This document shows positions 1,617-15,508 of a DNA stretch of 64,000 nt, piece by piece. The number at the start of each line of letters is the position of its first letter. Within the stretch, counting starts at the first letter, position 1. A model generated the notes under the pieces. That model made no database searches. It had not been told where the DNA came from and saw nothing but the letters and a program-made list of their open reading frames with translations. Origin of the DNA: Eubacterium sp. (lineage in GTDB: Bacteria; Bacillota; Clostridia; Lachnospirales; Lachnospiraceae). The stretch spans positions 27,727-91,726 of the forward strand of contig JAFYHN010000098.1 in the NCBI GenBank assembly GCA_017539165.1, given 5' to 3'. Made by a program: the position numbers and the translations under genes.

Positions 1617-2237
1617 CTATCTAAACCACCTAAAAAACCAATGATAATGTTTATGATTAGTTTCTTCTTCAGTTTCTTTCGGTACTAATTTTACGTTTAT
1701 TGCTTCTATAAATTGATATTTATCTCCACAGGAAGCGTAACCATCTTTTACCCAATCTGTCCATCCTTCATTCTTCGCATAAACCCTATACACTATATCA
1801 TAATGCTCACCGATTTCACCTGTAAGATCAAATGACACCTGTGACAACGGATCTGGTTTATCTATAACACCACACATATCACTCATAATCCCGCAAGGCG
1901 AATCAATAGAATGACGAGACAGTTTACCATCATACAATTTACCTTCAACACCAATGATTAATGCATGAACTCCTCCTTCATACGGAGAATCCATTATGCC
2001 TACCTTAAATGCTTTTAAATATCCTCCCTGATCAATCATACCAACTGATCCATCTTGATTCACATCAGTCCAACCAAGACCGGGAATATATCCCTGTATA
2101 TATACTTTAGGTTCTTTAACTTGTTTCTTATGGCATGCCTCAACGCCCGGCATTTCAGCAGCAAACACCCCCAAAAACACAACAAATGTAAATATAAATG
2201 ATATTATTCTTTTATTCTTTTTACTCAACAGCTTCAT
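1617..2237 (-). CDS. Secreted ChW-repeat protein (copy 4 of 4)
   Basis: The start is ATG at 2237, preceded by GGAGG; the longer frame to 2336 has no such signal and runs through a hairpin. The 206-residue product has a signal peptide (basic LLSKKNKR, hydrophobic core, cut near VEA). Two copies of the clostridial hydrophobic-Trp (ChW) repeat are visible. One is around YIQGYIPGLGWTDV with KAFKVGI. The other is around VYRVYAKNEGWTDWVKDG with IEAINVKLV. A linker holds CGIMSDMCG. ChW repeats are known in secreted clostridial proteins and are thought to act at the cell surface or in binding. It is the last gene of a four-gene tandem array. The C-terminus is short and His/Trp rich. Confidence 0.8.
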   Translation of the reverse strand: MKLLSKKNKRIISFIFTFVVFLGVFAAEMPGVEACHKKQVKEPKVYIQGYIPGLGWTDVNQDGSVGMIDQGGYLKAFKVGIMDSPYEGGVHALIIGVEGKLYDGKLSRHSIDSPCGIMSDMCGVIDKPDPLSQVSFDLTGEIGEHYDIVYRVYAKNEGWTDWVKDGYASCGDKYQFIEAINVKLVPKETEEETNHKHYHWFFRWFR

Positions 2238-2267
2238 AAATACCTCCAGTATAAATAATTTTAAATT

Positions 2268-2295
2268 CCCCTTGTCAGAATTTACTGACAAGGGG
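2268..2295 (-). terminator. Strong hairpin between the third and fourth ChW genes
   Basis: CCCCTTGTCAG (2268-2278) pairs perfectly with CTGACAAGGGG (2285-2295) around a six-base loop. On the minus strand it is followed by AATTTAAAATTATTT, which lacks a clean T run. It could end the upstream transcript partially, set the dose of the last gene, or stabilise an mRNA end. The core CTTGTC/GACAAG also occurs in the terminator at 4676-4708. Confidence 0.5.
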
Positions 2296-2355
2296 GAGTA
2301 ATTGATGATTTTATAGTAATCAATAAGTTCCCACATTTATCCTCTTCAAAAAGAC

Positions 2356-3045
2356 TTATCTTTCTTTTATTGCTTCTTTCAGTGCTAAACCTTCAAATTT
2401 TCCCGGATATTCTTCTAAAGCACCTGTATATATAGTACCTATTTTTTTAAGATCTTTAAACTGAACTATATTCAAAAACTGATTTTTTGTAACACCAAGA
2501 CTTACCAGATGAGCTTCGATAGCTTCAATCTTTCCGCTTTTACCACGAGCTTCAGCACCATTCTTAACCCACTCAGTCCAGCCTTCACCTGTAACAAAAA
2601 CTCTATAAACAACGTCATATCTCAGGGCAATATCGCCACCAAGATCCATTGATATAGCATAAACAGGCTGACATAATCCTGTGGTTCCACAGCACTCAGA
2701 CATAGTACCACACTTAGCAGTCTGATAATATCTTTTACCATTATTACTATCAACTTTTACCATAACATTTCCGCCAATAGTTGTATTCTTAATTCCAACC
2801 TTTACAGCCTCGAGTCTCCACTGATGATCGATTGTACCGGCAAATCCCTCACATACTTCTGCTGTCCAACCAAGTTTCTCAACATGTGGTTGAATGTAAA
2901 GTTGTGGATAACTCGCTTTAACAGCAGCAACTTCAGCTGCATCTACGGATGAAATATCTGTAGTCACAAATCCAAACAGAATTGCAGCTGCAAATGCAAT
3001 AGCTAATATACTTTTAATTGTTTTTGATTTTTTCAATACCTTCAT
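2356..3045 (-). CDS. Secreted ChW-repeat protein (copy 3 of 4)
   Basis: The start is ATG at 3045 (MKVLKKSK) with GGAGG ten bases upstream, not the codon at 3057. The 229-residue product has a signal peptide ending near VDAAE. ChW repeat 1 spans YIQPHVEKLGWTAEV to RLEAVKVGI, and repeat 2 spans VVYRVFVTGEGWTEWVKNG to IEAIEAHLV. Between them lies CGTMSECCGT, the same double-Cys motif as in the sister genes. Unlike the others it has an extra tail of about 50 residues after repeat 2 (GVTKNQFLNIVQF onward) that I cannot assign. It is secreted and probably acts at the cell surface. Confidence 0.8.
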   Translation of the reverse strand: MKVLKKSKTIKSILAIAFAAAILFGFVTTDISSVDAAEVAAVKASYPQLYIQPHVEKLGWTAEVCEGFAGTIDHQWRLEAVKVGIKNTTIGGNVMVKVDSNNGKRYYQTAKCGTMSECCGTTGLCQPVYAISMDLGGDIALRYDVVYRVFVTGEGWTEWVKNGAEARGKSGKIEAIEAHLVSLGVTKNQFLNIVQFKDLKKIGTIYTGALEEYPGKFEGLALKEAIKER

Positions 3046-3105
3046 AAACGCCTCCATAAATATAAGAAAACTATAAAATCATCAAATCATTAATATAGTA
3101 AAAAT

Positions 3106-3684
3106 TTAATACCTATCACTTGATACACCCTGCAAAACAAGTTTTGCTTCTACAGCTTCAATCTGCTGCCAATTCTTTCCATGAGCCAGTCCTCCATTTT
3201 TAAACCATGAAGACCAACCTTCATTTGTAGTATAAACTCTGTATTCTACACTATATAACGATGCAATATCGCCCCAAAGTAATAAGTTCATGGACATAAT
3301 CGGTTGTGACTGACCTACAGTTCCACAATAATCCGTCATATTTCCACATTTAGCACTTTGTGAATACTGTTCTGTATTTCCATTTACATATACGTTGATT
3401 CCACCACTAAACCTCGAATTATATACTCCCGCTTTCAAGGCTTCTAATCTCAGTCCACGCCCAGTCGTACCAGCGACTTCGGATGTTACACTCATCCAAC
3501 CTTCAGATTGCATATTAGCCTGAAGCTTAATTATTGGCTCATTTGTCACTTTAGGGAATGGCTTAGCTGATACAGTAGAGGGCATTTTCGGCACTTCAAA
3601 TGTCAGCATCACAAATAGAGTCAATAATGCAAAGAATACATATACCACTTTCTTATGTTTTTTTGATATGTTTATCCCTCTCAT
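3106..3684 (-). CDS. Secreted ChW-repeat protein (copy 2 of 4)
   Basis: ATG at 3684 follows GGAGG with a six-base gap. The 192-residue product is the most compact of the array. It has a signal peptide with basic N-region ISKKHKK and a core around VVYVFFALLTLFVML, then repeat 1 (LQANMQSEGWMSV, AGTTGRGLRLEALKAGV), the motif CGNMTDYCGT, and repeat 2 (VEYRVYTTNEGWSSWFKNG, IEAVEAKLV). The AGTTG..LRLEA pattern is the classic ChW signature. The tandem neighbours and shared ribosome sites suggest co-expression from the promoter at 4605-4673. Confidence 0.82.
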   Translation of the reverse strand: MRGINISKKHKKVVYVFFALLTLFVMLTFEVPKMPSTVSAKPFPKVTNEPIIKLQANMQSEGWMSVTSEVAGTTGRGLRLEALKAGVYNSRFSGGINVYVNGNTEQYSQSAKCGNMTDYCGTVGQSQPIMSMNLLLWGDIASLYSVEYRVYTTNEGWSSWFKNGGLAHGKNWQQIEAVEAKLVLQGVSSDRY

Positions 3685-3740: not shown

Positions 3741-4475
3741 TTATTTGGTTGGTGAAACGATAAAACTATTCGTATCTGGTTCTCGTCCATCTTGTTGAAT
3801 TATTGGAGGATAAGGTTCCGGAACCGGGATAGGATCAATAATAAGCGGATAATGAGGTGCTCTTTTATTACGTACAAGTCTAACCTCTAAAGCCTCAATT
3901 CGTTGATATTTACTACCTTTAGCAAATTCAAAATTTTTAACCCAAGGTTTCCAGCCTTCATCCTGCACATGTACTCTATATTCAATATCATAATAGTTTT
4001 TTATTTCCCCTTTAAGCTCTAATGATATTGCTGCAATTGGTTGTGATTTTCCTACAGTACCACATTGTTTTGACATTTCTCCACATTTAACAATTATATA
4101 ATCCTTATATACACCACCTGTAGATGTATAACCTATAACAGTAGCCCTTAATTCACCTTCGTAAGATCCTTCTCGAGGTATATATATATCAGGATCATTA
4201 TTAGGCATTATCCCAATCTTAAATGCTTCCAGTCTTAATGATTTCCCTGTAGTTCCAATAAGACCTTCAGTTGTCTCATCCATCCAGCCAATGTTTTGAA
4301 CATGACCTTGCAGATGAACTATCGGATCAGGATATGGATAATAAGGTGGAACAGTTGCATGGACAGTTGATATACCATTCGGCTTATAAACTGCCAGCAT
4401 CATGAATAGAATAATCAAGGCAAGTAATAAAGAAATGATTTTGGTCTTTTTACACATTTTTTTCATTACCTTCAT
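3741..4475 (-). CDS. Secreted ChW-repeat protein (copy 1 of 4, first in the array)
   Basis: The start is ATG at 4475 (MKVMKKMCKK), six bases after GGAGGTGCC. The 244-residue product has a signal peptide with core IISLLLALIILFMMLA, then repeat 1 (LQGHVQNIGWMDE, GTTGKSLRLEAFKIGI), a longer insert, CGEMSKQCGT, and repeat 2 (IEYRVHVQDEGWKPWVKN, IEALEVRLV). The tail is proline rich (PIPVPEPYPP), which could cross or contact the wall. It lies 130 bp downstream of a promoter preceded by 20-bp-spaced direct repeats, so it is probably the regulated first gene of the array. Confidence 0.82.
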   Translation of the reverse strand: MKVMKKMCKKTKIISLLLALIILFMMLAVYKPNGISTVHATVPPYYPYPDPIVHLQGHVQNIGWMDETTEGLIGTTGKSLRLEAFKIGIMPNNDPDIYIPREGSYEGELRATVIGYTSTGGVYKDYIIVKCGEMSKQCGTVGKSQPIAAISLELKGEIKNYYDIEYRVHVQDEGWKPWVKNFEFAKGSKYQRIEALEVRLVRNKRAPHYPLIIDPIPVPEPYPPIIQQDGREPDTNSFIVSPTK

Positions 4476-4604: not shown

Positions 4605-4673
4605 ATTTTATAATTTCTACATAAATCACTCAATAATGAGTTAGTGAACGACACATTTATTGAGTGAACGACA
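4605..4673 (-). promoter_or_regulatory. Promoter with a tandem direct-repeat operator upstream of the ChW array
   Basis: Reading the minus strand, TGTCGTTCAC occurs at 4664-4673 and again at 4644-4653, exactly 20 bp apart. Ten bp further on is TTGAGT (4628-4633), then 17 bp, then TAAAAT (4605-4610). The same arrangement recurs at 15393-15462. Direct repeats of about 9 bp spaced two helical turns apart, just upstream of a weak -35, are the usual architecture for LytTR-family regulators. Assignment to that family is inference. Confidence 0.6.
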
Positions 4674-4675
4674 TA

Positions 4676-4708
4676 ATAAAAACCTCTTGTCAGTTTCCCG
4701 ACAAGAGG
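4676..4708 (-). terminator. Rho-independent terminator of the ATPase gene
   Basis: CCTCTTGTC (4683-4691) pairs with GACAAGAGG (4700-4708). On the minus strand the stem is followed by TTTTTATTA. It lies between the ATPase stop at 4830 and the ChW-array promoter, insulating the two. The 66-codon frame through it (4535-4735) is not a credible gene. Confidence 0.75.
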
Positions 4709-4829
4709 CACGTTCATTTTATAGTTTATATCCAATTAATAAATCAGTTTCCATCGCCAAAAAAACATAATCCATCGACTTCAATCATACTTGAATATGA
4801 ATTCAGCTAAGGAAATATTCATCTAAATA

Positions 4830-5891
4830 TCACATTTTATATTCCTTTATATAATCACCAAAATATGGAAGCGCAAATCCAATATATCCCTGCTTATTCT
4901 TCAGGATTCCTTTACGAATCAGTCTATCGCGATAGACTGGATAGTTGTTCGGTTTATCCATACGACTCACAACTTCTTCTTTCTTATACTCTGCCTTGTC
5001 TATAAGAATACATGCTAACTTTCTGTCTCCGTCAGACATTTCCTCCCATATTTTTTCATAAGAATATGCAAACAATTCAGTTTTTAGTTTTTCTTTCAAC
5101 TCTTCAATCTTTATATTCTTATTTTTAAATGAAATCACTCCCAACTCCTGAAAAGCATAAGCGTATCCCCCAGTCATATCAGCCAATTTTCTTGCTTCTG
5201 AAGTTTCTATCCCCAGATACCTACGATATATGTCAATCATCTTGATATAGTTAAGAGAAGTCGTCATAACAGTAGTTGCTCGACGGAAAAATGTAAGATT
5301 CGGAACATTATATAACTGTTCTATATTCTCATATAATCCTGTACAAACAAGAAAGATTGGATATCCCGCTCGAAGCCATGTTCCAAATTCAGATACAAAT
5401 TCAATTACTTCACTTTTCTTAGAAATCTCATCTACACCAATTAGAATTTTTTTATGTGACGCTTCAACCTTTTTTAATAATTTCTCAATCTCCAACCCTT
5501 GATCAAAATAATTATCGTCTTTGGAAGATTTTATTCCAACTTCTCCACCTAAGCCTAGAAGCTTAGCAGAAATATTTACACTTTTTTCTTTTCTTTCCGA
5601 ACCCTTTATTCCTGAAAAATCTTCAACCAATCGAGCTAAAAGCTGCTGAAGCATATCTCTTGCAGGCGAAATACGATACACGTACCACTCATCTTTGTTA
5701 AGTAATGTAATCTCTTCTTCTACTTTTGCCAAAAGAACTGTTTTTCCAGAACCTCTTACTCCTGTAATTTTATAAACAGATTCTGTTGGACGTTCATAGC
5801 CAAAGTTTTCAACTATCTCAATAGTCTGCTCAGTTGGGATATAACTATTATCCGGTATTTTACTATATGTTGTAACAAATGGATTTTGCAT
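4830..5891 (-). CDS. P-loop ATPase of the AAA/ORC-like type
   Basis: The 353-residue protein has Walker A GVRGSGKT at residues 44-51 and a Walker B-like ILIGVDE at about 149-155. A helical C-terminal half ends in what looks like a winged helix (KEEVVSRMDKP to the end). This is the layout of the widespread bacterial ATP-binding proteins related to archaeal ORC/Cdc6-like and STAND ATPases, many of which have no known role. No membrane segment or nuclease domain is attached. The start ATG at 5891 follows AAAAAGGAATAAAAA. Its whole upstream leader is built from four 29-bp tandem repeats. A terminator follows at 4676-4708, so it is probably a single-gene unit. Confidence 0.75.
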   Translation of the reverse strand: MQNPFVTTYSKIPDNSYIPTEQTIEIVENFGYERPTESVYKITGVRGSGKTVLLAKVEEEITLLNKDEWYVYRISPARDMLQQLLARLVEDFSGIKGSERKEKSVNISAKLLGLGGEVGIKSSKDDNYFDQGLEIEKLLKKVEASHKKILIGVDEISKKSEVIEFVSEFGTWLRAGYPIFLVCTGLYENIEQLYNVPNLTFFRRATTVMTTSLNYIKMIDIYRRYLGIETSEARKLADMTGGYAYAFQELGVISFKNKNIKIEELKEKLKTELFAYSYEKIWEEMSDGDRKLACILIDKAEYKKEEVVSRMDKPNNYPVYRDRLIRKGILKNKQGYIGFALPYFGDYIKEYKM

Positions 5892-5892
5892 T

Positions 5893-6002
5893 TTTTATTC
5901 CTTTTTATTCTTTTATATTTGTTTTATTCCTTTTTATTCTTTTATATTTGTTTTATTCCTTTTTATTCTTTTATACATATTTTATTCCTTTTTATTCTTT
6001 TG
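5893..6002. repeat. Four tandem 29-bp repeats in the leader of the ATPase gene
   Basis: Copies of TTTTATTCC followed by TTTTTATTC begin at 5893, 5922, 5951 and 5980, a strict 29-bp period with one or two differences in the last copy. On the minus strand each unit contains an AAAAAGGAAT ribosome-site-like core and an AT-rich block (AATATAAAAG) that could act as a -10. The array abuts the ATPase start codon. Confidence 0.85.
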
Positions 6003-6007
6003 TCAAG

Positions 6008-6044
6008 AAAAAACGAGCATCACTTAAAAGTGATACCCGTTTTT
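6008..6044 (-). terminator. Rho-independent terminator of the 6047-6376 gene
   Basis: AAAAACG and ATCACTT (6009-6025) pair with AAGTGAT and CGTTTTT (6028-6044). The minus-strand RNA ends in a run of T. Confidence 0.65.
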
Positions 6045-6046
6045 AA

Positions 6047-6376
6047 TCATCTTATATTTTCATTCCTGCCATTGTTGTAAAGGAACTTAGCTATTCTTAC
6101 AACAGCCTTAAATGTTTCTACGCCCTTTTGAATCCTATTCTTTATTCTGATAAAAATGTTATCTTTCTTCTTAACACTCTTGTCATTTTCAACGTAGTTA
6201 TACTGTTCCTGTTCTTTTCTTCCAGATACTCCGGAAGCAACAACTTTATGCATACCATCGGAATTACGATATATCTTAAATCCCGATTTTTTAAGTTCAT
6301 CACATCTAGAGATGTATTCACTTATTTCGAACTGATATAATCTATCAAGTTCTTGAGCTAAACTATCTAAATTCAT
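6047..6376 (-). CDS. Small hypothetical protein
   Basis: The 109-residue frame starts MNLDSLAQELDRLYQ and is predicted mostly helical and strongly basic in its last third (RIKNRIQKGVETFK). No signal peptide, membrane segment or recognised motif is seen. The ribosome site (AAGTGAG) is weak. A terminator directly follows the stop, which supports transcription. It lies between the GerW gene and the tandem repeats of the ATPase leader. I do not recognise it. Confidence 0.5.
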   Translation of the reverse strand: MNLDSLAQELDRLYQFEISEYISRCDELKKSGFKIYRNSDGMHKVVASGVSGRKEQEQYNYVENDKSVKKKDNIFIRIKNRIQKGVETFKAVVRIAKFLYNNGRNENIR

Positions 6377-6485
6377 TCTTATTTTCTCACTTATAATAAA
6401 ATATTTCCCCTACCTAAACCATAAAGATACTTTTTATCACATATCGAGAATATACTATTGAGAAAAATCCAAGTGGCATCAAAGA

Positions 6486-6902
6486 TTAAAACTCCTGATC
6501 TGATAAATTATCAGCTATCTCTCCGATTTCTTCCATCTCTGACTCAGTAACGCCATCTTTCTTAATGATATGCTTAAGTTTTTCAGCAACATCAGGGATC
6601 ATTTCCAGAACCTTGCCAAGAGAACCCTTATCTTCATTAACATTTATAATCTGTGAGTATCCATCTTTAATGACGATTATGGCTGTAGGTGACAACTTTC
6701 CACCCATACCGCCTCCTGCTGTTTCACTTCTCTTGCCTCCGTAAGCTCCGGCACCAACACCGAAGTTCACATCGCAAAGTGGTATGATTGTAGCATCTCC
6801 AACCTGAATCGGTTCTCCAACTACCGACTTTGAAGTGAGAAATGCATCCATTCCCTTAAAAAGGGCATTTACTGTACTGTTGAAATCGTTACCATTTGCC
6901 AT
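6486..6902 (-). CDS. ytfJ: GerW/YtfJ-family sporulation protein
   Basis: The best start is ATG at 6902 (MANGNDFN), eight bases after GGAGG; the upstream ATG at 6908 and TTG at 6917 are too close to it. The 138-residue product has the family core: GEPIQVGDATIIPL, then a glycine-rich stretch with GVGAGAYGG and AGGGMGGKLSPTA, then IIVIKDGYSQIINV. In Bacillus this small soluble protein is needed for spore germination. The gene immediately upstream encodes a DUF2953 protein, matching the Bacillus ytfI-ytfJ pair. It suggests a sporulating ancestor; the window has no other clear sporulation gene. Confidence 0.85.
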   Translation of the reverse strand: MANGNDFNSTVNALFKGMDAFLTSKSVVGEPIQVGDATIIPLCDVNFGVGAGAYGGKRSETAGGGMGGKLSPTAIIVIKDGYSQIINVNEDKGSLGKVLEMIPDVAEKLKHIIKKDGVTESEMEEIGEIADNLSDQEF

Positions 6903-6946
6903 CGTCATGTCCTCCAATATATTATACTAATTAATGTAATAAATCT

Positions 6947-7987
6947 TTAAATCTTTTCTGCCAGCTTCTTTGTTTTCCAGAAGTCACGGCTTATAAGAAT
7001 CCTAAGTGCCGGTAATAAAAATCTGAATAGGTATATACGGCCTCTAAAATCAAGGTCAGCCTCAATAACTTTATTATAGAAATCCGGTTCAATCTCGAGC
7101 CACCTTCCATAGAGTCCATAAAACATTGACATCTTACCAAGTATATTTCCCGTATCAGCAGCACTTCCTAATCCAAGTTTCAGATATCCTCTGCTCTTTT
7201 TGGGCTTTATCGTAAGAAGAAGTCTCTTAATCACTTTAAATGCTCTCGCTATTGTTCTCTGAACATAGTCTCTATCGAGGAACTGTTCAACATGATCTAT
7301 CTTCTTGACGACACTTTCATACTTCTCATCAAGTTTATCCATGCCATCTTCGACTTTATCCAGAACTTCCTCTGTTTTGTCAGATAGCTTATTCATCATC
7401 TGACCAAAGCTTTTCTTCGTTCGCTTCTTATTTTCCGGACTATGTTTATTATCTTTTTTTGATTTGCGATTCTTTATCTTATCCAGGATCGATGTCTTGG
7501 ATTCGGTGTCTATCTCTGAAGCAAAATCCGGTTCCTCCAGATTCAAATCATTAATTTCATTTTCATCAACTGAAGCGTTCTCCGTTATATCGTCATCCTC
7601 AACAGCGTTTTCTTCAACGCTCTCCGAAGTTACACTCTCCGAAACATCCTCTTCCTCTTCATCCGGGAATTTTCCATCCATGATATCACCTTCTAAGATA
7701 TCATCAGCTTCACCTTGTTTCGGTATATTCTCCTTCTTCGGAAAGATCTTGAAGAACAGGAGTTTAGCTCCGTAGCTCAGACCGTTCACTTTATCAAAAT
7801 GTCCCTTTGCCGTTAAGATCAGATACGAGACCTTAACGTCTGCAGTTGTTTCATTATCATTATGAACTGCTTTTATCCTGTAACATATGGGTACAAATAG
7901 GATCAGCAATAATATCAGGAGAACAAGTCCTATTATCACAAGAAGAATTATACCCAGTATCTTAAGGACAGCAAGTAATATACCCAT
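6947..7987 (-). CDS. ytfI: DUF2953 (YtfI-like) membrane-anchored protein
   Basis: The 346-residue protein starts at ATG 7987 after AGGGG. One long membrane helix lies at about residues 5-33, followed by a DUF2953 N-terminal strand region (VPICYRIKAVHNDNETTADVKVSYL). Then comes a long acidic and later lysine-rich linker, about residues 95-240, that includes KKDNKHSPENKKRTKK. The conserved C-terminal part (RGYLKLGLGSAADTGNILGKM, ADLDFRGRIYLFRFL) closes it. It is adjacent to and in the same direction as ytfJ, as in other Firmicutes. The function is unknown; a link to sporulation is by context only. The linker is much longer than in Bacillus. Confidence 0.8.
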   Translation of the reverse strand: MGILLAVLKILGIILLVIIGLVLLILLLILFVPICYRIKAVHNDNETTADVKVSYLILTAKGHFDKVNGLSYGAKLLFFKIFPKKENIPKQGEADDILEGDIMDGKFPDEEEEDVSESVTSESVEENAVEDDDITENASVDENEINDLNLEEPDFASEIDTESKTSILDKIKNRKSKKDNKHSPENKKRTKKSFGQMMNKLSDKTEEVLDKVEDGMDKLDEKYESVVKKIDHVEQFLDRDYVQRTIARAFKVIKRLLLTIKPKKSRGYLKLGLGSAADTGNILGKMSMFYGLYGRWLEIEPDFYNKVIEADLDFRGRIYLFRFLLPALRILISRDFWKTKKLAEKI

Positions 7988-8011
7988 AGACTATCCCCTA
8001 AACATTAATAG

Positions 8012-8332
8012 CTATATCGAAAAGAACTCCTTTATATCAGGTTTTCCGAGTTCTCTGTAAACATCATCCAGAATATCACACACCACCTGTTTTGCAGATT
8101 CCCTGCTCTTTGCAACACCTATCACATTAAACGTTCTTCTCTTCTTTCTGTAGAAAGGCTGAAGAAGCTCGTTGTAATTATATATCTCCATGATTCCAGC
8201 ATCATACATAGGTTCCGTGATAACAAAAAGCCCTTTTACCGGTCTCTTAAGTGCAACTTTAAGAACAAGTCTTTTAAATGCCTTTTCACCGATATCAGCT
8301 GAGTATACATTTTTATTAACACGAATTCTCAT
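8012..8332 (-). CDS. Small conserved-looking hypothetical protein
   Basis: The start is ATG at 8332, seven bases after AGGGG. The 106-residue soluble protein starts MRIRVNKNVYSADIGEKAF, is rich in basic residues, and alternates predicted strands and helices. There is no signal or membrane segment. It is packed between the DUF2953 gene (25 bp away) and the 470-residue helical protein (21 bp away), so the three probably share a transcript. I do not recognise a family. Confidence 0.6.
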   Translation of the reverse strand: MRIRVNKNVYSADIGEKAFKRLVLKVALKRPVKGLFVITEPMYDAGIMEIYNYNELLQPFYRKKRRTFNVIGVAKSRESAKQVVCDILDDVYRELGKPDIKEFFSI

Positions 8333-8352
8333 ATACAATCCCCTAACAGGTT

Positions 8353-9765
8353 TTAATTTCCAGCTATAACATCACTTATGATATCTCTGCAGGCTGTAAG
8401 CTCAGCCTTATCACTGCAGCTTGAAAGCGCATACTCAAAGTATTCCTTGATCTCCTGCTGAGAATTAAAGAATACCGGCATCAGAGAAAGTATCTTCGCC
8501 ATAACACTTCTCTTAAGCTGTTTTGACATATCCTTAAATGCCTCTTCAAGTTCAGCAACAAGAGTCTCTCTCTCTTCCATAATGTATATATCATCTGCTT
8601 CTTCAACAACAACTTTTATTCCACTACTTTCAATATCCATAAAAAGCGAAGTAGATGTAAGTCTGTCTGCCTTAAGAAGCATGTCAAATGCATTCTTAAT
8701 ATCTGCGTTATCAAACATTTCATAATAAAGAGAATACAGATCTTCCAGATTGCTGTCCAGGAATGAGAGATCATCGTACGCTGATTCCTGAGCACCTTCA
8801 AGGCTTACAAAAAGCTCATCAAACTCAGATGAAGCCTCATATATATCATCAGCTGATACAAGCTCGCTTATGATCTTAGAAGATATCTCATACTTATCCT
8901 TAAGATAAGTCTTATCTGCTATAGAATCTGTATAGAGAACTATGAGCGCATCATTTAGAATCTCGGTAAGCATCAGATAATCTGTCACTGCTGACTGAAT
9001 GATAGCCGTAGCTTCTGTTATAAGATCACTAAGTTTCTCATATTCCTCTCTCGTGATATTCTTGTAATCCGCATTCTTAAGAGTTGTATATATCTCATAT
9101 AACTTCGGATACTGAGTTTCGAATCCTTCAGGCTTATTCATAAGAGCTGCATCTCTGATAGTCTGAATAAAATCATCCACAGACTTTTTCTCACCGCCCT
9201 TATAGATAGCGATTGAATTCGTAATGATATCAAAGAATCTTCCCTTAGTCATTCTGACCGGAAGCTGAGCTATAAACTCCTGAATTCTAGTATTAACAAG
9301 CATCTTGTCATTCTCAGAGAACACGAATTCATACATACTCTCAGCAAGTTCAGGGACATTTATATTCTCATCTACTGTTCCGAGAACCGATGGTTCAACA
9401 CGATTCAGAATATATTCATATATCTCAAGTGCATCAGTATATGCAGTCAGAACTTTCATACCTGCTGTAACTTTATCTCTGACATCAGCAACCTCAGCTG
9501 CTGTCTCAGCATCCACTTCACACTTATCTATATAAATACATCTGAGAGCAGCATTAATCGTATCGATGTAGCCCTCTATCTCTTCTCTTCTGTCCAGATC
9601 TATCTCTTCTGACATTTCATACATTGTGAAGAGGTTCATAGACATTTTTATAGTTGCATAATTCTCAAATGAAGCCGCAAGCAGAGACTGGAAACTTTTA
9701 AGCGCTTCCTCTCTGTTTCTGTCGGCGTTTATATCTGTTAATAATATCTTTCCTTGTTTTTTCAT
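8353..9765 (-). CDS. Large all-helical protein of unknown function
   Basis: The start is ATG at 9765 (MKKQGKILLTDINADRNREEA) after AGGTGG; a GTG three codons earlier overlaps that site. The 470-residue product is acidic and almost entirely helical, with no membrane segments, no signal peptide and no nucleotide-binding motif. Its size and composition suggest a helical-repeat scaffold. It sits between the derlin-like membrane protein and the small protein at 8012-8332, with gaps of about 20 bp on each side, so an operon is likely. I do not recognise it. Confidence 0.65.
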   Translation of the reverse strand: MKKQGKILLTDINADRNREEALKSFQSLLAASFENYATIKMSMNLFTMYEMSEEIDLDRREEIEGYIDTINAALRCIYIDKCEVDAETAAEVADVRDKVTAGMKVLTAYTDALEIYEYILNRVEPSVLGTVDENINVPELAESMYEFVFSENDKMLVNTRIQEFIAQLPVRMTKGRFFDIITNSIAIYKGGEKKSVDDFIQTIRDAALMNKPEGFETQYPKLYEIYTTLKNADYKNITREEYEKLSDLITEATAIIQSAVTDYLMLTEILNDALIVLYTDSIADKTYLKDKYEISSKIISELVSADDIYEASSEFDELFVSLEGAQESAYDDLSFLDSNLEDLYSLYYEMFDNADIKNAFDMLLKADRLTSTSLFMDIESSGIKVVVEEADDIYIMEERETLVAELEEAFKDMSKQLKRSVMAKILSLMPVFFNSQQEIKEYFEYALSSCSDKAELTACRDIISDVIAGN

Positions 9766-9786
9766 TTTATCCACCTGTGCGATTAA

Positions 9787-10746
9787 TTACTGAACATGTT
9801 GATGCGTATATAAGTGTTCGGAACAATATTCATAGTTTCCATTACACTTAGAGCAGAATCTGAATTCAAGTTCCGGAGAATCAAGTTCAGTTCTTCCGCA
9901 AACAGCACACTTATGTATTGATATACCCTTTGGATTACCTGTTCCTGGAGATGATGTATTCCCCATAAACTTTATAGTTCCATCAGGATTATATTCATTT
10001 GGTCTCTTACGACGCATCTGTTTAGATTTGACAAACTTCTGTTTTCTCCGCCTATCTGAAAATGAAGGAGTATATCTTCTTTTTACAGTGAAGAAGTACA
10101 GGAAATAGTTCGCAACCGAACAGAAAACAATTATTTTCGTAAAGAATCCACCGGTAATAAAATAGTAAAGCAGGATTGCAAGATCTGCATATGCAAGATA
10201 CTTCATCTTAAGTGGGATCACAAAATACAGATATACAGTATTTTCTCCTCCAACAACTGTAAATGCGAGAAAGATACTCATAAGAAGAAGTCTTGTAATC
10301 ATAAGACCTGCGCTGATAGAATCATTCATATCCATAAGATGAAGTGCCGAATTCGGACTCCATACATAGTAATAATATGAACCAATAAGTACACATATAT
10401 TGGTGAATAATGCACCGCCAATTATATACAGATTGTAGATGAATCTGCCCCAGAACATTTCCAGTGAACGTCCCAGAAAATAATAAAAGAACAGATTAAT
10501 GGGGAGTAAAACAACAGACCATCCGGAGCTAATCTCATATGGAATCGTAAATATCCATGTAAATAGTCTCCAGTACTGATGCTTCAGAACGATAAAACTC
10601 GGAATCAGAACAAGCTGTCCATACAGTCCGGGAGCAGTATATCTGATAATGTAACCCAAAACAATACACGCAATTGTAACCACATATAAGTACGGAATTG
10701 CAAACCTTCCCAAATGTTTTTCCAGCTTATAAAGTATTTTCATCAT
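9787..10746 (-). CDS. Rhomboid/derlin-fold membrane protein with a C-terminal zinc ribbon
   Basis: The 319-residue protein has about six hydrophobic segments between residues 15 and 225. A rhomboid-like landmark, HQYWRLFTWIFTIPYE, follows the first helix, and a derlin-like FWGRFIYNLYIIGG lies later. I see no GxSG catalytic serine motif, so it is more like an inactive derlin or DER1-type member than a protease. The soluble tail is basic and then carries CAVCGRT and FCSKCNGNYEYCSEHLYTHQH, a likely metal-binding ribbon or finger. It is the first gene of the minus-strand run ending near 6486 and is divergent from the activase gene. Confidence 0.7.
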   Translation of the reverse strand: MMKILYKLEKHLGRFAIPYLYVVTIACIVLGYIIRYTAPGLYGQLVLIPSFIVLKHQYWRLFTWIFTIPYEISSGWSVVLLPINLFFYYFLGRSLEMFWGRFIYNLYIIGGALFTNICVLIGSYYYYVWSPNSALHLMDMNDSISAGLMITRLLLMSIFLAFTVVGGENTVYLYFVIPLKMKYLAYADLAILLYYFITGGFFTKIIVFCSVANYFLYFFTVKRRYTPSFSDRRRKQKFVKSKQMRRKRPNEYNPDGTIKFMGNTSSPGTGNPKGISIHKCAVCGRTELDSPELEFRFCSKCNGNYEYCSEHLYTHQHVQ

Positions 10747-10859
10747 TTTTCCTCTTATATCAAGTCATTCTTTTAAACATACAAAGTAAATTATACGACA
10801 CAAGTATACAAAACACAAGAACAGAATCCCTGTATTAAGCATTATTAAAAAATTAAAAA

Positions 10860-10888
10860 TTGAAATAAATCTACTACTGCTATATAAT
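10860..10888 (+). promoter_or_regulatory. Sigma-A promoter of the activase gene
   Basis: TTGAAA (10860-10865), 17 bp, TATAAT (10883-10888). It lies 37 bp upstream of the TTG start at 10925, with AGGAG in between. Confidence 0.75.
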
Positions 10889-10924
10889 ATTTTTTCGAAG
10901 AAAAATCAGAAGGAGTGTCGTAAG

Positions 10925-13900
10925 TTGAAACATTTAGGAATTGATATCGGATCAACAACCGTTAAGATAGCGGTTATAGACGAGAAAAACAACATACTAT
11001 ACAGTGAATATAAAAGACATTTTGCTAAGATTAAAGAAACACTCAAAGAACTGTTAGAAAATGCGATTCAGTCTATCGGAGATACTGAAGTTGCCGCTGA
11101 CATCACAGGTTCAGGCGGACTTGCACTTTCAAATGTAATAGGAATACCATTCGAGCAGGAGGTTGTTTGTGTATCTACTGCTCTTAAGACATTTGCACCC
11201 AAAACCCAGGTAGCCATCGAGCTCGGTGGTGAAGATGCAAAGATCATATATTTTTCAAAGAACGGCATTGAACAGCGTATGAACTCTGTTTGTGCAGGTG
11301 GAACAGGATCATTTATCGATCAGATGGCTGCACTGCTTATGACAGATGCGTCCGGACTTAATGAACTCGCAAAGGATTATGATACAATCCATCCTATCGC
11401 TGCGCGATGCGGTGTATTTGCCAAAACAGATATTCAGCCTCTCATAAATGAAGGAGCTACAAAGCCAAATCTTTCTGCTTCTATCTTCCAGGCTGTCGTT
11501 AATCAGACTATATCCGGTCTTGCATGTGGAAAACCAATCCGTGGTTATGTTGCATTCCTCGGTGGGCCTCTCCACTTCCTGGATCAGCTCCGCGCAAGAT
11601 TCGTAGACACTCTTAATCTCGATGACGAACATGCGATAATACCGGACAATTCTCATCTTTTTGCAGCTAGTGGTGCTGCACTTCACGCAGATGATTCAAA
11701 TACTATTATGATGTCTGAGCTTGCTTCAAAGCTCACTCCTGAGCTTAAGATTGAGGTGGAAGTCAACCGCCTCGATCCTCTGTTCAAGAACGATTCAGAG
11801 TACAATGAGTTCACAACTCGTATGTCAAAATATAAAGTAAAAAGAGGAAACCTCGCCGATTACAAGGGAAATGTATTCCTTGGTATCGACGCCGGTTCAA
11901 CTACAACAAAACTCGCTCTTATCGGTGAAGAAGGCGAACTTCTGTATGATTTCTACAGCAATAATAACGGTAGTCCTGTAAATACAACTATAAAAGCCCT
12001 GAAGGAGATATATTCTCTTCTCCCAACAACGGCACATATCGCAGGAAGCTGCTCTACCGGATACGGAGAAGCTCTTCTAAAGTCTGCCTTTAATCTTGAT
12101 TACGGCGAAGTTGAAACAATAGCACACTATACAGCCGCAGCATTCTTTGATCCTAAGGTTGACACTATCCTCGATATCGGTAGTCAGGATATGAAATGTA
12201 TCAAGATCAGAGAAGGTGTCGTAGATAATGTAATGCTCAACGAATCATGTTCTTCCGGATGTGGTTCATTTATAGAGACATTTGCAAACTCACTTGATTA
12301 CAAGGTTCAGGACTTTGCTAAGATTGCGCTCTATGCAAAGAGCCCTATAGATCTTGGTTCAAGATGTACAGTATTTATGAATTCTAAGGTTAAGCAGGCG
12401 CAGAAGGAAGGAGCTACTGTCGAAGATATCTCAGCAGGTCTTGCATATTCGGTTATCAAGAACGCCCTGCTCAAGGTTATCAAACTTACAGACCCTAAGC
12501 AGCTCGGTTCTCAGATTGTTGTTCAGGGTGGAACATTCTACAATGATGCTGTTCTGAGGGCATTTGAGATCGTATCAGGCGCAAAGGCGATCCGTCCTGA
12601 TATCGCTGGTATAATGGGCGCCTTCGGTGCTGCTCTTATTGCAAGAGACAATTACACAGAAGGCTTTAAGTCTACCACTCTCCCTAGCAAAGATGTGGAG
12701 GAACTCACTTACGAAACACAGATGGCACGTTGCGGAAAATGTACCAACAACTGCCTTCTAACAATAAATAAATTCACGGGAAATAGAAGATTCATTACAG
12801 GTAACAGATGCGAACAGGGACTTGGTCTTAAGAAGAACGCTGAGAATCTTCCAAATCTGTACGAGTACAAGTTTAATCGTGTATTTGGATACGAACCGCT
12901 TTCTCCTGAAGAAGCTACTCGTGGTGAGATTGGCGTACCTAGAGTTCTTAACATGTACGAGAACTATCCATTCTGGTATACATTTCTTACAGAACTTAAG
13001 TACAGAGTTATCCTGTCACCAAAGTCAGACAAAAATATATATCAGCTTGGTATCGAATCAATTCCAAGTGATACGGAATGTTACCCTGCTAAGATAAGCC
13101 ACGGTCACGTTATGTGGCTTGTTAAGAACGGACTTAAAACAATCTTCTATCCATGTATACCATATGAGATGAATGAGACTCCGGACGCTAATAACCACTA
13201 TAACTGTCCGATAGTAACTTCATATTCCGAAAACATAAAGAATAACATGGAAGAACTTGAAACAGAACATATCACTTACATTCGTCCTTTCCTTGCACTT
13301 GATAACAAACTTGCACTAAAGGATCGTATGTTCAGAGAGTTTACAAAGTATACTGATGTAACTCGTGAAGAAATCAGCCGTGCTATCGATAAAGCCTTTG
13401 AAGAAGCTGAAAAGGTAAAACAGGACGTTCGCAAGAAAGGTGAGGAAACACTCAAGTATCTTGAAGAGAACGGAAAAGTCGGAATCGTTCTTGCAGGTCG
13501 ACCATATCACGTTGATCCAGAGATCAATCACGGAATTCCTGAGCTTATCAACTCATACGGAGTTGCAGTTCTCTCTGAGGATTCCATTTCCCATCTTGGC
13601 GACGTCGACAGACCACTTATCGTATCAGACCAGTGGATGTACCATTCAAGACTTTACAAAGCTGCTAACTACGTCAAGACCAAAACAAACCTCGAACTCG
13701 TACAGCTGTTCTCATTCGGCTGTGGCCTTGATGCCGTTACAACAGACTGCGTTAAGGATATACTTTCAAATTCAAATAAGATATATACCGTATTAAAGAT
13801 AGATGAAGTATCTAACCTCGGAGCTGCACGCATTCGTATACGTTCTCTTCTTTCAGCGATGAAAGTAAGAGAGAAAAAACAGTTTAAACCAATAGATTGT

Positions 13901-15148
13901 TCAACAGCTCTCAACAGAGTTGAATTCACTAAGGATATGCGTGAAGATTACACAGTACTCTGTCCTCAGATGTCACCAATACATTTCAAGATGCTTCAGG
14001 CAGCCATGAGACATTTCCACGTTAACTTCGTAATGCTTCCTGATGCACAGAAGTCCACCATCGATGAAGGACTTAGATTCGTTAATAACGATGCCTGCTA
14101 CCCTTCTATCATCGTTGTTGGACAGCTTATGGAGGCTATAGAGTCAGGACAGTATGATGTAAATAAACTCGCTGTCGCCATAACTCAGACCGGCGGAGGA
14201 TGCCGTGCGACAAACTATATCGGATTCATAAGAAGAGCCCTTGCCAAATCTGGATACGCACAGATTCCTGTATTATCAATAAGTGCTCAGGGACTTGAAA
14301 AGAATTCCGGATTCAAGATCAATATGAAGGGACTTAAATGTGCTCTTCATGCTGTTATGTATGGAGATCTCTTCATGAGAGTTGTATATAGAACCAGACC
14401 TTATGAGAAGAAACCTGATTCAGTTAATAAACTTCATAAAAAATGGGAAAAGATATGTATAAGAGATATCGAAAGAGGTTCTCATAACTTTGGCAAGATC
14501 TGCCGTGATATCGTAAGAGACTTCGATAATATCCCACTGGATGAGACTATTAAAAAGCCTAAGGTTGGTATAGTCGGCGAGATACTGGTTAAGTTCCTTC
14601 CATCAGCCAACAACCACCTTGTTGACCTTCTTGAGCAGGAAGGTGCTGAAGCAGTTATGCCTGACCTTCTGGACTTCCTGTCATACAGCGCTTATAACTC
14701 AAACTACAAATACGAATTCCTTGGAAAGTCCAAGAAATCCGCTAAAATAAGCAATATACTGATCAACTTGCTTGAACAGATGCGTAGACCTATGGTCAAA
14801 GCTCTTCAGAAAAGTAAACGATTCGATCCGCCTACACCTATTGCTACTATCGCAAGCTATGCAAGGCCGATCGTTTCCATAGGAAATGAAACAGGTGAAG
14901 GCTGGTTCCTTACCGGAGAGATGGTTGAACTTATCAAGCACGGCGCTCCAAATATCGTATGTTGTCAGCCATTTGCTTGCCTGCCTAACCACATCATCGG
15001 AAAAGGCGTTATAAAGAAACTGAGAAACGTTTATCCGGATGCAAACATCACCCCTATCGACTTCGACCCGGGAGCATCCGAAGTTAATCAGATCAACCGT
15101 ATCAAACTGATGCTTGCGTCAGCAAAAGACAACCTTGAAGCATCATAA
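10925..15148 (+). CDS. Fused 2-hydroxyacyl-CoA dehydratase activase-like protein
   Basis: This 1407-residue protein starts with TTG after AGGAG. It carries two actin/ASKHA-fold BadF/BcrA/HgdC domains. The first has [10 protein letters not shown] near residue 5, ELGGEDAK near 100 and CAGGTGSF near 127. The second has [10 protein letters not shown] near 320, DIGSQDMK and SSGCGSF near 440. The Cys of each CxGG/SGCG segment is where activases bind a bridging [4Fe-4S] cluster. Next comes a DUF2229 region (residues about 660-880, containing [10 protein letters not shown]), then a dehydratase-like C-terminal half. Activases use ATP to inject an electron into 2-hydroxyacyl-CoA dehydratases. No dehydratase gene is adjacent, so the substrate of this fused form is unknown. 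It is alone on the plus strand and ended by a palindromic terminator. Confidence 0.85.
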
Positions 15149-15165
15149 TAATTATATCAATCATA

Positions 15166-15206
15166 AAAATATGACACTTGAAATCAGATTTCAAGTGTCA
15201 TATTTT
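15166..15206. terminator. Perfect 20-bp palindromic bidirectional terminator
   Basis: The arm 15166-15185 is the exact reverse complement of 15187-15206 around a single A. The RNA of either strand ends in TATTTT. It separates the convergent activase gene and the 44-residue membrane protein gene. Near-identical copies stand at 15468-15508 and 60422-60460. Confidence 0.85.
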
Positions 15207-15222
15207 CATTTCAAAACAACTA

Positions 15223-15357
15223 TTATTCTTTTATATCTTCGCTATCATTAGTATTCTCGTCATCGTTTTGGTCTTCTTTTTTACTATATAGATTTTTAGT
15301 AGTCAAAAGAGCTCCCACTAAAGCTAAACCTATACAAATCCATAATGTTCTGTCCAT
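15223..15357 (-). CDS. 44-residue single-pass membrane protein
   Basis: This gene is too short for most callers. ATG at 15357 follows GGAGG by ten bases and the stop TAA is at 15223-15225. The product reads MDRTLWICIGLALVGALLTT, then KNLYSKKEDQ and a very acidic tail (NDDENTNDSEDIKE). It has one N-terminal hydrophobic helix, then a basic patch, then an acidic cytoplasmic or external tail. A promoter (-10 at 15393-15398) with the same tandem operator as the ChW array lies upstream, and terminators bracket it, so it looks like a real, independently regulated small gene. I do not recognise a family. Confidence 0.7.
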   Translation of the reverse strand: MDRTLWICIGLALVGALLTTKNLYSKKEDQNDDENTNDSEDIKE

Positions 15358-15392
15358 TTGTATGTAACCTCCAGATTATATATGATAATCAC

Positions 15393-15462
15393 ATTATATA
15401 AGTCTGTTATGTCATCATACAAGTGCTATCTAGTGAACGACATATTTTTTTGATGAACGACA
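15393..15462 (-). promoter_or_regulatory. Promoter with a tandem direct-repeat operator upstream of the small membrane protein
   Basis: On the minus strand TGTCGTTCAT (15453-15462) and TGTCGTTCAC (15433-15442) are exactly 20 bp apart. After 10 bp comes TTGTAT (15417-15422), then 18 bp, then TATAAT (15393-15398). The geometry and sequence match the ChW-array promoter at 4605-4673, which suggests one regulator for both. A LytTR-type protein is my inference from the repeat spacing. Confidence 0.65.
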
Positions 15463-15467
15463 TATGC

Positions 15468-15508
15468 AAAATATGACAGTTGAAATCTGATTTCAACTGT
15501 CATATTTT
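15468..15508 (-). terminator. Palindromic terminator of the clostripain gene
   Basis: The arm 15468-15487 is the exact reverse complement of 15489-15508 around a single T. It differs from the copy at 15166-15206 only at one stem pair and the loop base. It lies just past the protease stop codon. Confidence 0.85.

Follow-up and report, generated by a model that had tools for sequence, protein, structure and literature searches.

An operator shared by two distant promoters probably belongs to a LytTR-controlled micropeptide quorum-sensing regulon

Two distant minus-strand promoters in a 64,000-nucleotide stretch of a Eubacterium sp. genome (Lachnospiraceae; assembly GCA_017539165.1, contig JAFYHN010000098.1, positions 27,727 to 91,726; hereafter the window) carry the same paired direct repeat, TGTCGTTCA-N11-TGTCGTTCA, which raises the question of what regulator, if any, unites them. 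Operator 1 occupies positions 4645..4673 (first repeat 4665-4673, second 4645-4653) and operator 2 positions 15434..15462 (first repeat 15454-15462, second 15434-15442). These 9-mer coordinates confirm a preliminary description of the same DNA, in which both sites had been placed on the minus strand with repeat starts 20 bp apart. By consensus match only, the promoter of operator 1 (4605..4633) consists of a -35 hexamer TTGAGT (4628-4633), 17 bp and a -10 hexamer TAAAAT (4605-4610), and that of operator 2 (15393..15422) of TTGTAT (15417-15422), 18 bp and TATAAT (15393-15398), the same -35 to -10 spacings as first described. The gap between repeat and -35 is likewise equal at the two sites, but it measures 11 bp from the 9-mer and not the 10 bp originally given; the latter figure is obtained by taking the following base (C in both inner repeats) as part of the repeat, which is what the earlier coordinates do. 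As argued below, both sites are probably operators of a LytTR regulator within a micropeptide quorum-sensing regulon, in which the regulator would bind and activate while the peptide would be exported and sensed.

Seven exact copies of the spaced pair are found in the 3,201,553-base genome, as against approximately 9e-5 expected from the base composition of the window, which bears out the suspicion that the shared geometry is not a product of chance. Allowing up to two mismatches, there are 10 copies of the operator and none of a reversed control; at up to three mismatches the figures are 11 and 4, and matches of this class were therefore treated as noise (a three-mismatch match on contig C57 was dropped on these grounds). 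The motif is not scattered through the genome: all 10 sites are intergenic and nine face the start of a gene on the same strand, the sole exception being C64:38670 (locus L005). A TTG stands at the -35 position, 11 bp past the second 9-mer, in seven of the 10. Single 9-mers are not enriched in the window, where 16 occur with up to one mismatch versus 12.3 expected, a number reached in 15 of 100 shuffles.

LytTR domains are matched 11 times in this genome, and two of the matches adjoin operators, both outside the window, on contigs C44 (39959-40684) and C64 (38805-39530). Each of these two genes encodes a receiver followed by a LytTR domain and overlaps a downstream gene for a kinase with a GHKL domain and hydrophobic segments within residues 4-216; the LytTR and GHKL matches both pass their Pfam cut-offs. 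The regulators of the two pairs are 50% identical and the kinases 46%. The finding of receiver-LytTR genes with the operator beside them supports the LytTR-type interpretation offered when the sites were first described. Within the genus, the kinase subfamily (E<1e-150) is present in seven of 61 genomes, and two more have a remote kinase (approximately 1e-51) and no operator. The operator (up to one mismatch) is found in exactly those seven genomes and in one other, G004, whose completeness is 58% (Fisher p 1.8e-8). At two mismatches the reversed control gives 11 matches in 10 of the 61 genomes; since the control reaches the same level, matches seen only at two mismatches, in G480, G032 and G022, were not counted. 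A separate sample of 61 relatives, 37 from this genus and 24 from other families, yielded the operator in six genomes, all in the genus, and the control in none.

The structure predicted for the Eubacterium ruminantium kinase has a mean predicted local distance difference test score of 69.7 and a predicted template modelling score of 0.44. Its best match in the PDB is the cytoplasmic portion of Staphylococcus aureus AgrC (E 1.3e-7, TM-score 0.50 by target; 0.73 for the ATPase domain alone). Both kinase and regulator fall far below the NCBIfam cut-offs for AgrC and AgrA. A comparison of two kinase alignments was not used; it is partly circular because both alignments contain the E. ruminantium kinase.

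On C44, the operator diverges from the regulator gene and is followed by GGAGG and a 16-codon open reading frame (ORF), MTRSDIFDWFRENGWP, the probable signal of the system. A simple terminator scan around this ORF in the present genome (G000) found none. Small ORFs occupy the same place in other genomes of the genus: MIHCDILDWWRKHGWP in G467, MILCNIFEWLRNRGG in G001, MIILFNIFEWLRTL in G007, MVFFDFLDLLSWLFS in G028 and MHRTGYHSFFDYSIFSFLKSLF in G015. Altogether, six of eight genus modules have a plain micro-ORF. The peptides are short (13-36 aa), hydrophobic and aromatic, often with a core resembling D-[IF]-[FW]-[DE]-W-L, and in the module loci compared they bear no double-glycine leader. Over 11 distinct cores, non-majority bases number 24, 13 and 52 at codon positions 1, 2 and 3; because the cores had been selected by motif, which biases this count, codons outside the selection motif were recounted and gave 24, 12 and 38. 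Changes within five close pairs are distributed 6, 6 and 15 (p 0.014). The third-position bias, taken together with residue changes in the close pairs, suggests that the frame matters and that the peptide evolves fast. In a tree of 20 kinases, receptors cluster by peptide type: those associated with NIFEWL or DIFDWF group with the rest of the genus, those with YDFWEWL form a clade, and WPFG groups with WLWKLFG, while the placement of three long branches is unsure.

The arrangement extends beyond the genus. An exact-pattern scan of named genomes returned at least 114 stretches, and the counts that follow, down to those made with the micro-ORF rule, hold among the matches listed. By title, 80 of the 114 are Lachnospiraceae, or genera that we counted there (Eubacterium, Butyrivibrio, Roseburia, Acetatifactor, Lachnoclostridium and three Clostridium sp.), and seven are Selenomonadales; the remainder are spread over other groups and include several GC-rich or plain tandem repeats. 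At low-GC sites a TTG lies 11 bp past the second 9-mer in 72 of 104 (the next-best offset accounts for 17 sites), a count that excludes 17 of 121 distinct sites with at least 50% GC over 109 bp as well as sites with short downstream sequence. In twenty loci the kinase, the regulator or both are encoded no more than 1.2 kb from the site. A fixed rule that requires a ribosome-binding site and a frame of 12-40 codons whose ATG lies 85-150 nt from the start of the site detects a micro-ORF in 18 of these 20 and in four of 46 other TTG sites (p 1.7e-10); the rule took the wrong frame for L136, and the figures are its own counts. ORFs that it missed are visible by eye in L104 (MMYYWTGLWRIWPFK) and in L175 (MKFLWLDYWFFWPFG, cognate of MKLFWLDYWFFWPFG in L166). 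A second genus has sites in 13 of 22 genomes (reversed control 0). Of the 13, at least 11 (10 plus L156, which is G502) have behind an operator a peptide with the core [DE]YDFWEWL..ILGI or some variant of that core, as counted in loci from 30 places only. Here an operator is also found at a regulator gene (L136:4544).

Seven Selenomonadales metagenome-assembled genomes (MAGs; L092, L103, L126, L129, L148, L153 and L077) carry the same exact operator, with TTG at +11 in seven of eight sites. Near these operators no kinase or regulator of the subfamily scores above 90 bits, and we regard the sites as a related LytTR regulon. Some operators are made of three tandem repeats with a 20-bp period (L037 in G007, L049 in G015 and L097 in UBA7076). 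A MAG labelled Paludibacteraceae (L091) has a YDLWYWL module that is found too in a Lachnospiraceae MAG (L150, L223), so the label is probably a binning error. The single operator match in a viral collection is a tandem repeat devoid of the module, and a blastn search of plasmids with the G000 module region gave no match.

The computed support thus comprises a shared operator, its spacing from the promoter, the co-occurrence of operator and kinase, the adjacency of the genes and a coding-type conservation of the micropeptide. Paired repeats of about 9 bp with a 20-bp period before a -35 make an operator layout close to that of published LytTR operators, as presented in excerpts of PMC6193735 and PMC2714321. 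We hold with high confidence that the operator belongs to a LytTR peptide-signalling regulon; that the micropeptide is exported and sensed as its signal is likely. The match of operator layout and AgrC-like kinase model led us to propose an agr-like loop with a leaderless signal. The micropeptide would exit the cell through some exporter and be sensed by the membrane half of the kinase. Once phosphorylated, the LytTR regulator would bind both repeats, two helical turns apart on the same face of the DNA, and from this position just upstream of a weak -35 would activate transcription. A positive loop would close at the peptide gene and, in the second genus, at a regulator gene. Further targets would be the ChW, RHS-repeat and DUF4214 proteins, the small membrane protein, the ABC transporter operon and the biosynthesis-type gene run (see below).

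Several observations weigh against this proposal. The 24 module loci have no exporter or processing gene in common; among their ORFs of at least 70 aa, the only widely shared families are the kinase (23 loci) and the regulator (21), followed by ABC ATPases (six) and one other family (three). The -35 is poor in three of the 10 sites of this genome, and the 11-bp spacer departs from the 12 bp that is commoner in the LytTR systems compared, to the extent that the excerpts cover them. Two of the eight genus modules have no plain micro-ORF, namely the C64 pair of the present genome and the module of G473, where a matching frame is present and a standard start codon is absent. Over 75 codons of the close pairs, 13 changes alter the amino acid and 10 do not, an excess that may fit a fast-evolving signal but may equally fit a weakly constrained ORF. 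Finally, the genome sets overlap and their counts are not independent.

In the strongest alternative, operator and LytTR/kinase pair are real and the kinase senses something else; the micropeptide would then be a membrane-active or toxin-like effector, would regulate the kinase from within the cell, or would be no more than a small ORF carried by a regulatory RNA. The missing leader, the want of a shared exporter and the short, hydrophobic, aromatic character of the peptides all speak for such a role. However, peptide type tracks kinase clade, as expected of a ligand and its receptor, and the ORF stands beside kinase and regulator genes far more often than at other operators, which a ligand-receptor pair predicts as well. 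Moreover, streptococci are known to export peptide signals that have no leader (excerpts of PMC6565748 and PMC13361665). A non-signal role appears improbable. Considerably less likely is that the operator is bound by some other regulator, either one of the nine remaining LytTR proteins or an activator outside this family, and that the two pairs are mere targets. The number of LytTR domains in the genome would allow it, as would the Selenomonadales operators with no subfamily kinase or regulator above 90 bits nearby; against it, operator and kinase subfamily co-occur in the genus and operators adjoin these pairs in many species. It is scarcely credible that the repeats belong to some mobile or structural family (repetitive extragenic palindrome-like or tandem) landing between genes, as the triple copies with a 20-bp period in L037, L049 and L097 and the plain tandem repeats among matches in other phyla and in the single viral match might suggest, given that the spacers show free variation, that the offset to the promoter is constant (72 of 104 at one offset among the matches listed) and that the downstream genes differ.

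What the putative regulon contains in this genome can be read from the genes behind the sites. In the window, the first gene behind operator 1 encodes a ChW-repeat protein (3741..4475, minus strand; PF07538, 72.4 bits) with an apparent signal sequence; its ATG, at 4475, is preceded by GGAGG. The rest of the array (1617..3684, minus strand) comprises genes at 3106-3684 and 2356-3057, both above the ChW cut-off, and one at 1617-2267 that falls below it (17.3 of 22 bits); the array may be co-transcribed. Behind operator 2 lies a gene for a 44-aa protein (15223..15357, minus strand), its ATG preceded by GGAGG, with one hydrophobic segment, an acidic tail and no match to a Pfam family. Two near-identical perfect inverted repeats, with 16-bp arms and 1 base between (by eye), flank this gene at 15170-15202 and 15472-15504, the second starting 10 bp upstream of operator 2; they are possibly two-way terminators. 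An AAA ATPase gene lies just upstream of operator 1 (4830-5891, minus strand), and a paralogue of it stands directly behind the operator on C101 (L029:6540-7574, plus strand; 33.5% identity over 349 aa).

Elsewhere, sites precede an RHS-repeat protein that exceeds 2,300 aa and apparently carries a signal sequence (C22), an ABC transporter operon named from sequence (C31), a DUF4214 protein (C105) and the C101 AAA ATPase. On C64, two facing operators accompany the regulator/kinase pair, one of them with no evident gene; they lie approximately 215 bp apart upstream of the regulator (L024:5427-5699), with no clear micro-ORF, and this second pair is perhaps a receptor listening to the C44 peptide. 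C44 itself has the site of the 16-codon ORF at about 40.9 kb and another at metK (again named from sequence), which heads a same-strand gene run of about 23 kb, from 64.5 down to 41.1 kb. This run, which presumably forms one transcription unit, encodes several radical-SAM proteins, a methyltransferase, an acyl-CoA dehydrogenase, ABC transporters, a class-II-synthetase-like protein just at the cut-off and a sub-threshold carrier-protein match. It spans L023:7136-13995, L209 and L025:691-6482, between the operator-bearing metK and the micropeptide module, and as far as we looked it is an undescribed cluster. This gene content resembles peptide signalling combined with cell-surface functions, as the preliminary description had anticipated.

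In other genomes, precursors with a double-glycine motif (e.g. MFNTLNVKEMMDVNGG...) follow many sites; a crude rule finds them at six of 46 among the matches listed, one doubtful, and more were seen outside this count. A peptidase-type exporter in L064 passes TIGR01193 with 699 bits, while the one in L060 stays under the cut-off of 523.85 with 507.6. Other double-glycine sites have a radical-SAM protein (L054) or an AMP-ligase (L055) nearby, neither passing a subfamily cut-off, and further operators precede apparent secreted proteins. In G007 an operator (L063:9014-9042) precedes a 28-codon ORF, MKIIDCIYENRNLSKDAIKIGDDIFETI. This ORF is similar to the beginning of the AMP-ligase that follows the operator in G015 (L055) and is apparently a decayed copy.

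In the open-access literature searched, no description of the operator or of the peptide family was found. Excerpts of two rumen papers (PMC7035670, PMC10838665) treat acyl-homoserine lactones, autoinducer-2, agr genes and the streptococcal competence peptide, and not such a system. On balance we favour the view that the modules represent a class of peptide quorum sensing in its own right, one that is widespread among Lachnospiraceae of the rumen and gut. Its minimal set would be a leaderless aromatic micropeptide of 13-36 aa, an AgrC-like kinase and a LytTR regulator acting on TGTCGTTCA-N11-TGTCGTTCA, with no need for AgrB, a double-glycine leader or a dedicated exporter, and it would command bacteriocin genes, genes for ribosomally synthesised and post-translationally modified peptides and other biosynthesis genes. 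Beyond what was first described, the analysis offers a probable signal, the 16-codon ORF, and an arrangement that recurs across Lachnospiraceae. With the nearly invariant operator as a search pattern, whole regulons can be listed straight from genomes. The micro-ORFs specify definite short peptides for synthesis and for testing in carrier isolates such as Eubacterium ruminantium FB3002 and Roseburia sp. 1XD42-69. The system could offer a route to waking bacteriocin and other biosynthetic clusters that lie silent in gut bacteria, and it raises the question of how, with no leader, the peptide gets to a membrane kinase from the outside.

Among known systems, agr (AgrBDCA) likewise combines a membrane GHKL kinase, a LytTR regulator, a divergent or adjacent signal gene and a direct-repeat operator; unlike it, the modules described here lack AgrB and have a signal ORF of 13-36 aa. 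The AgrD precursor is longer than this. No AgrB-like family is common to the 24 module loci, and no AgrD-like layout was seen by eye in the 13-36-codon ORFs; membership in agr was rejected because the module lacks both AgrB and such a precursor. AgrB (PF04647) does occur in nine of 15 genomes (it was not found in six, G015 and G028 among them), lying in G000 on C79 and C95 beside other LytTR genes and in G001 and G007 on contigs other than that of the module. The pln, blp and com systems share with the present one a LytTR regulator on paired repeats before a -35 and bacteriocin targets. According to the available part of PMC2714321, PlnC/PlnD bind paired 9-bp repeats upstream of the -35 of the bacteriocin genes that they command; their repeat, TACGTTAAT, has a spacer of 12 bp, as against 11 bp for TGTCGTTCA, and, shifted by one base, has CGTT.AT in common with GTCGTTCAT. 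Double-glycine pheromone systems differ in that the micropeptide here has no such leader, and double-glycine precursors and C39-type exporters appear among the targets. In the LytTR Regulatory Systems HdrRM and BrsRM the distance between repeats is mostly 12 bp but can be 11 or 13 bp, the repeats strongly favour a position 10 bp ahead of the -35, and autoregulation is positive (PMC6193735, in part); the partner of the LytTR regulator in those systems is a membrane inhibitor, whereas a receiver-LytTR protein is paired here with a histidine kinase. A very short leaderless peptide encoded divergently from its receptor gene also serves as signal in the SIP and Rgg/RopB system of Streptococcus pyogenes, as set out in the portions of PMC6565748 and PMC13361665 consulted. 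The Rgg family is not widely shared by the module loci, to which the search for it was confined. SIP, at 8-10 aa, acts on a cytosolic Rgg receptor after re-import; the peptides described here, at 13-36 aa, would instead address a membrane kinase.

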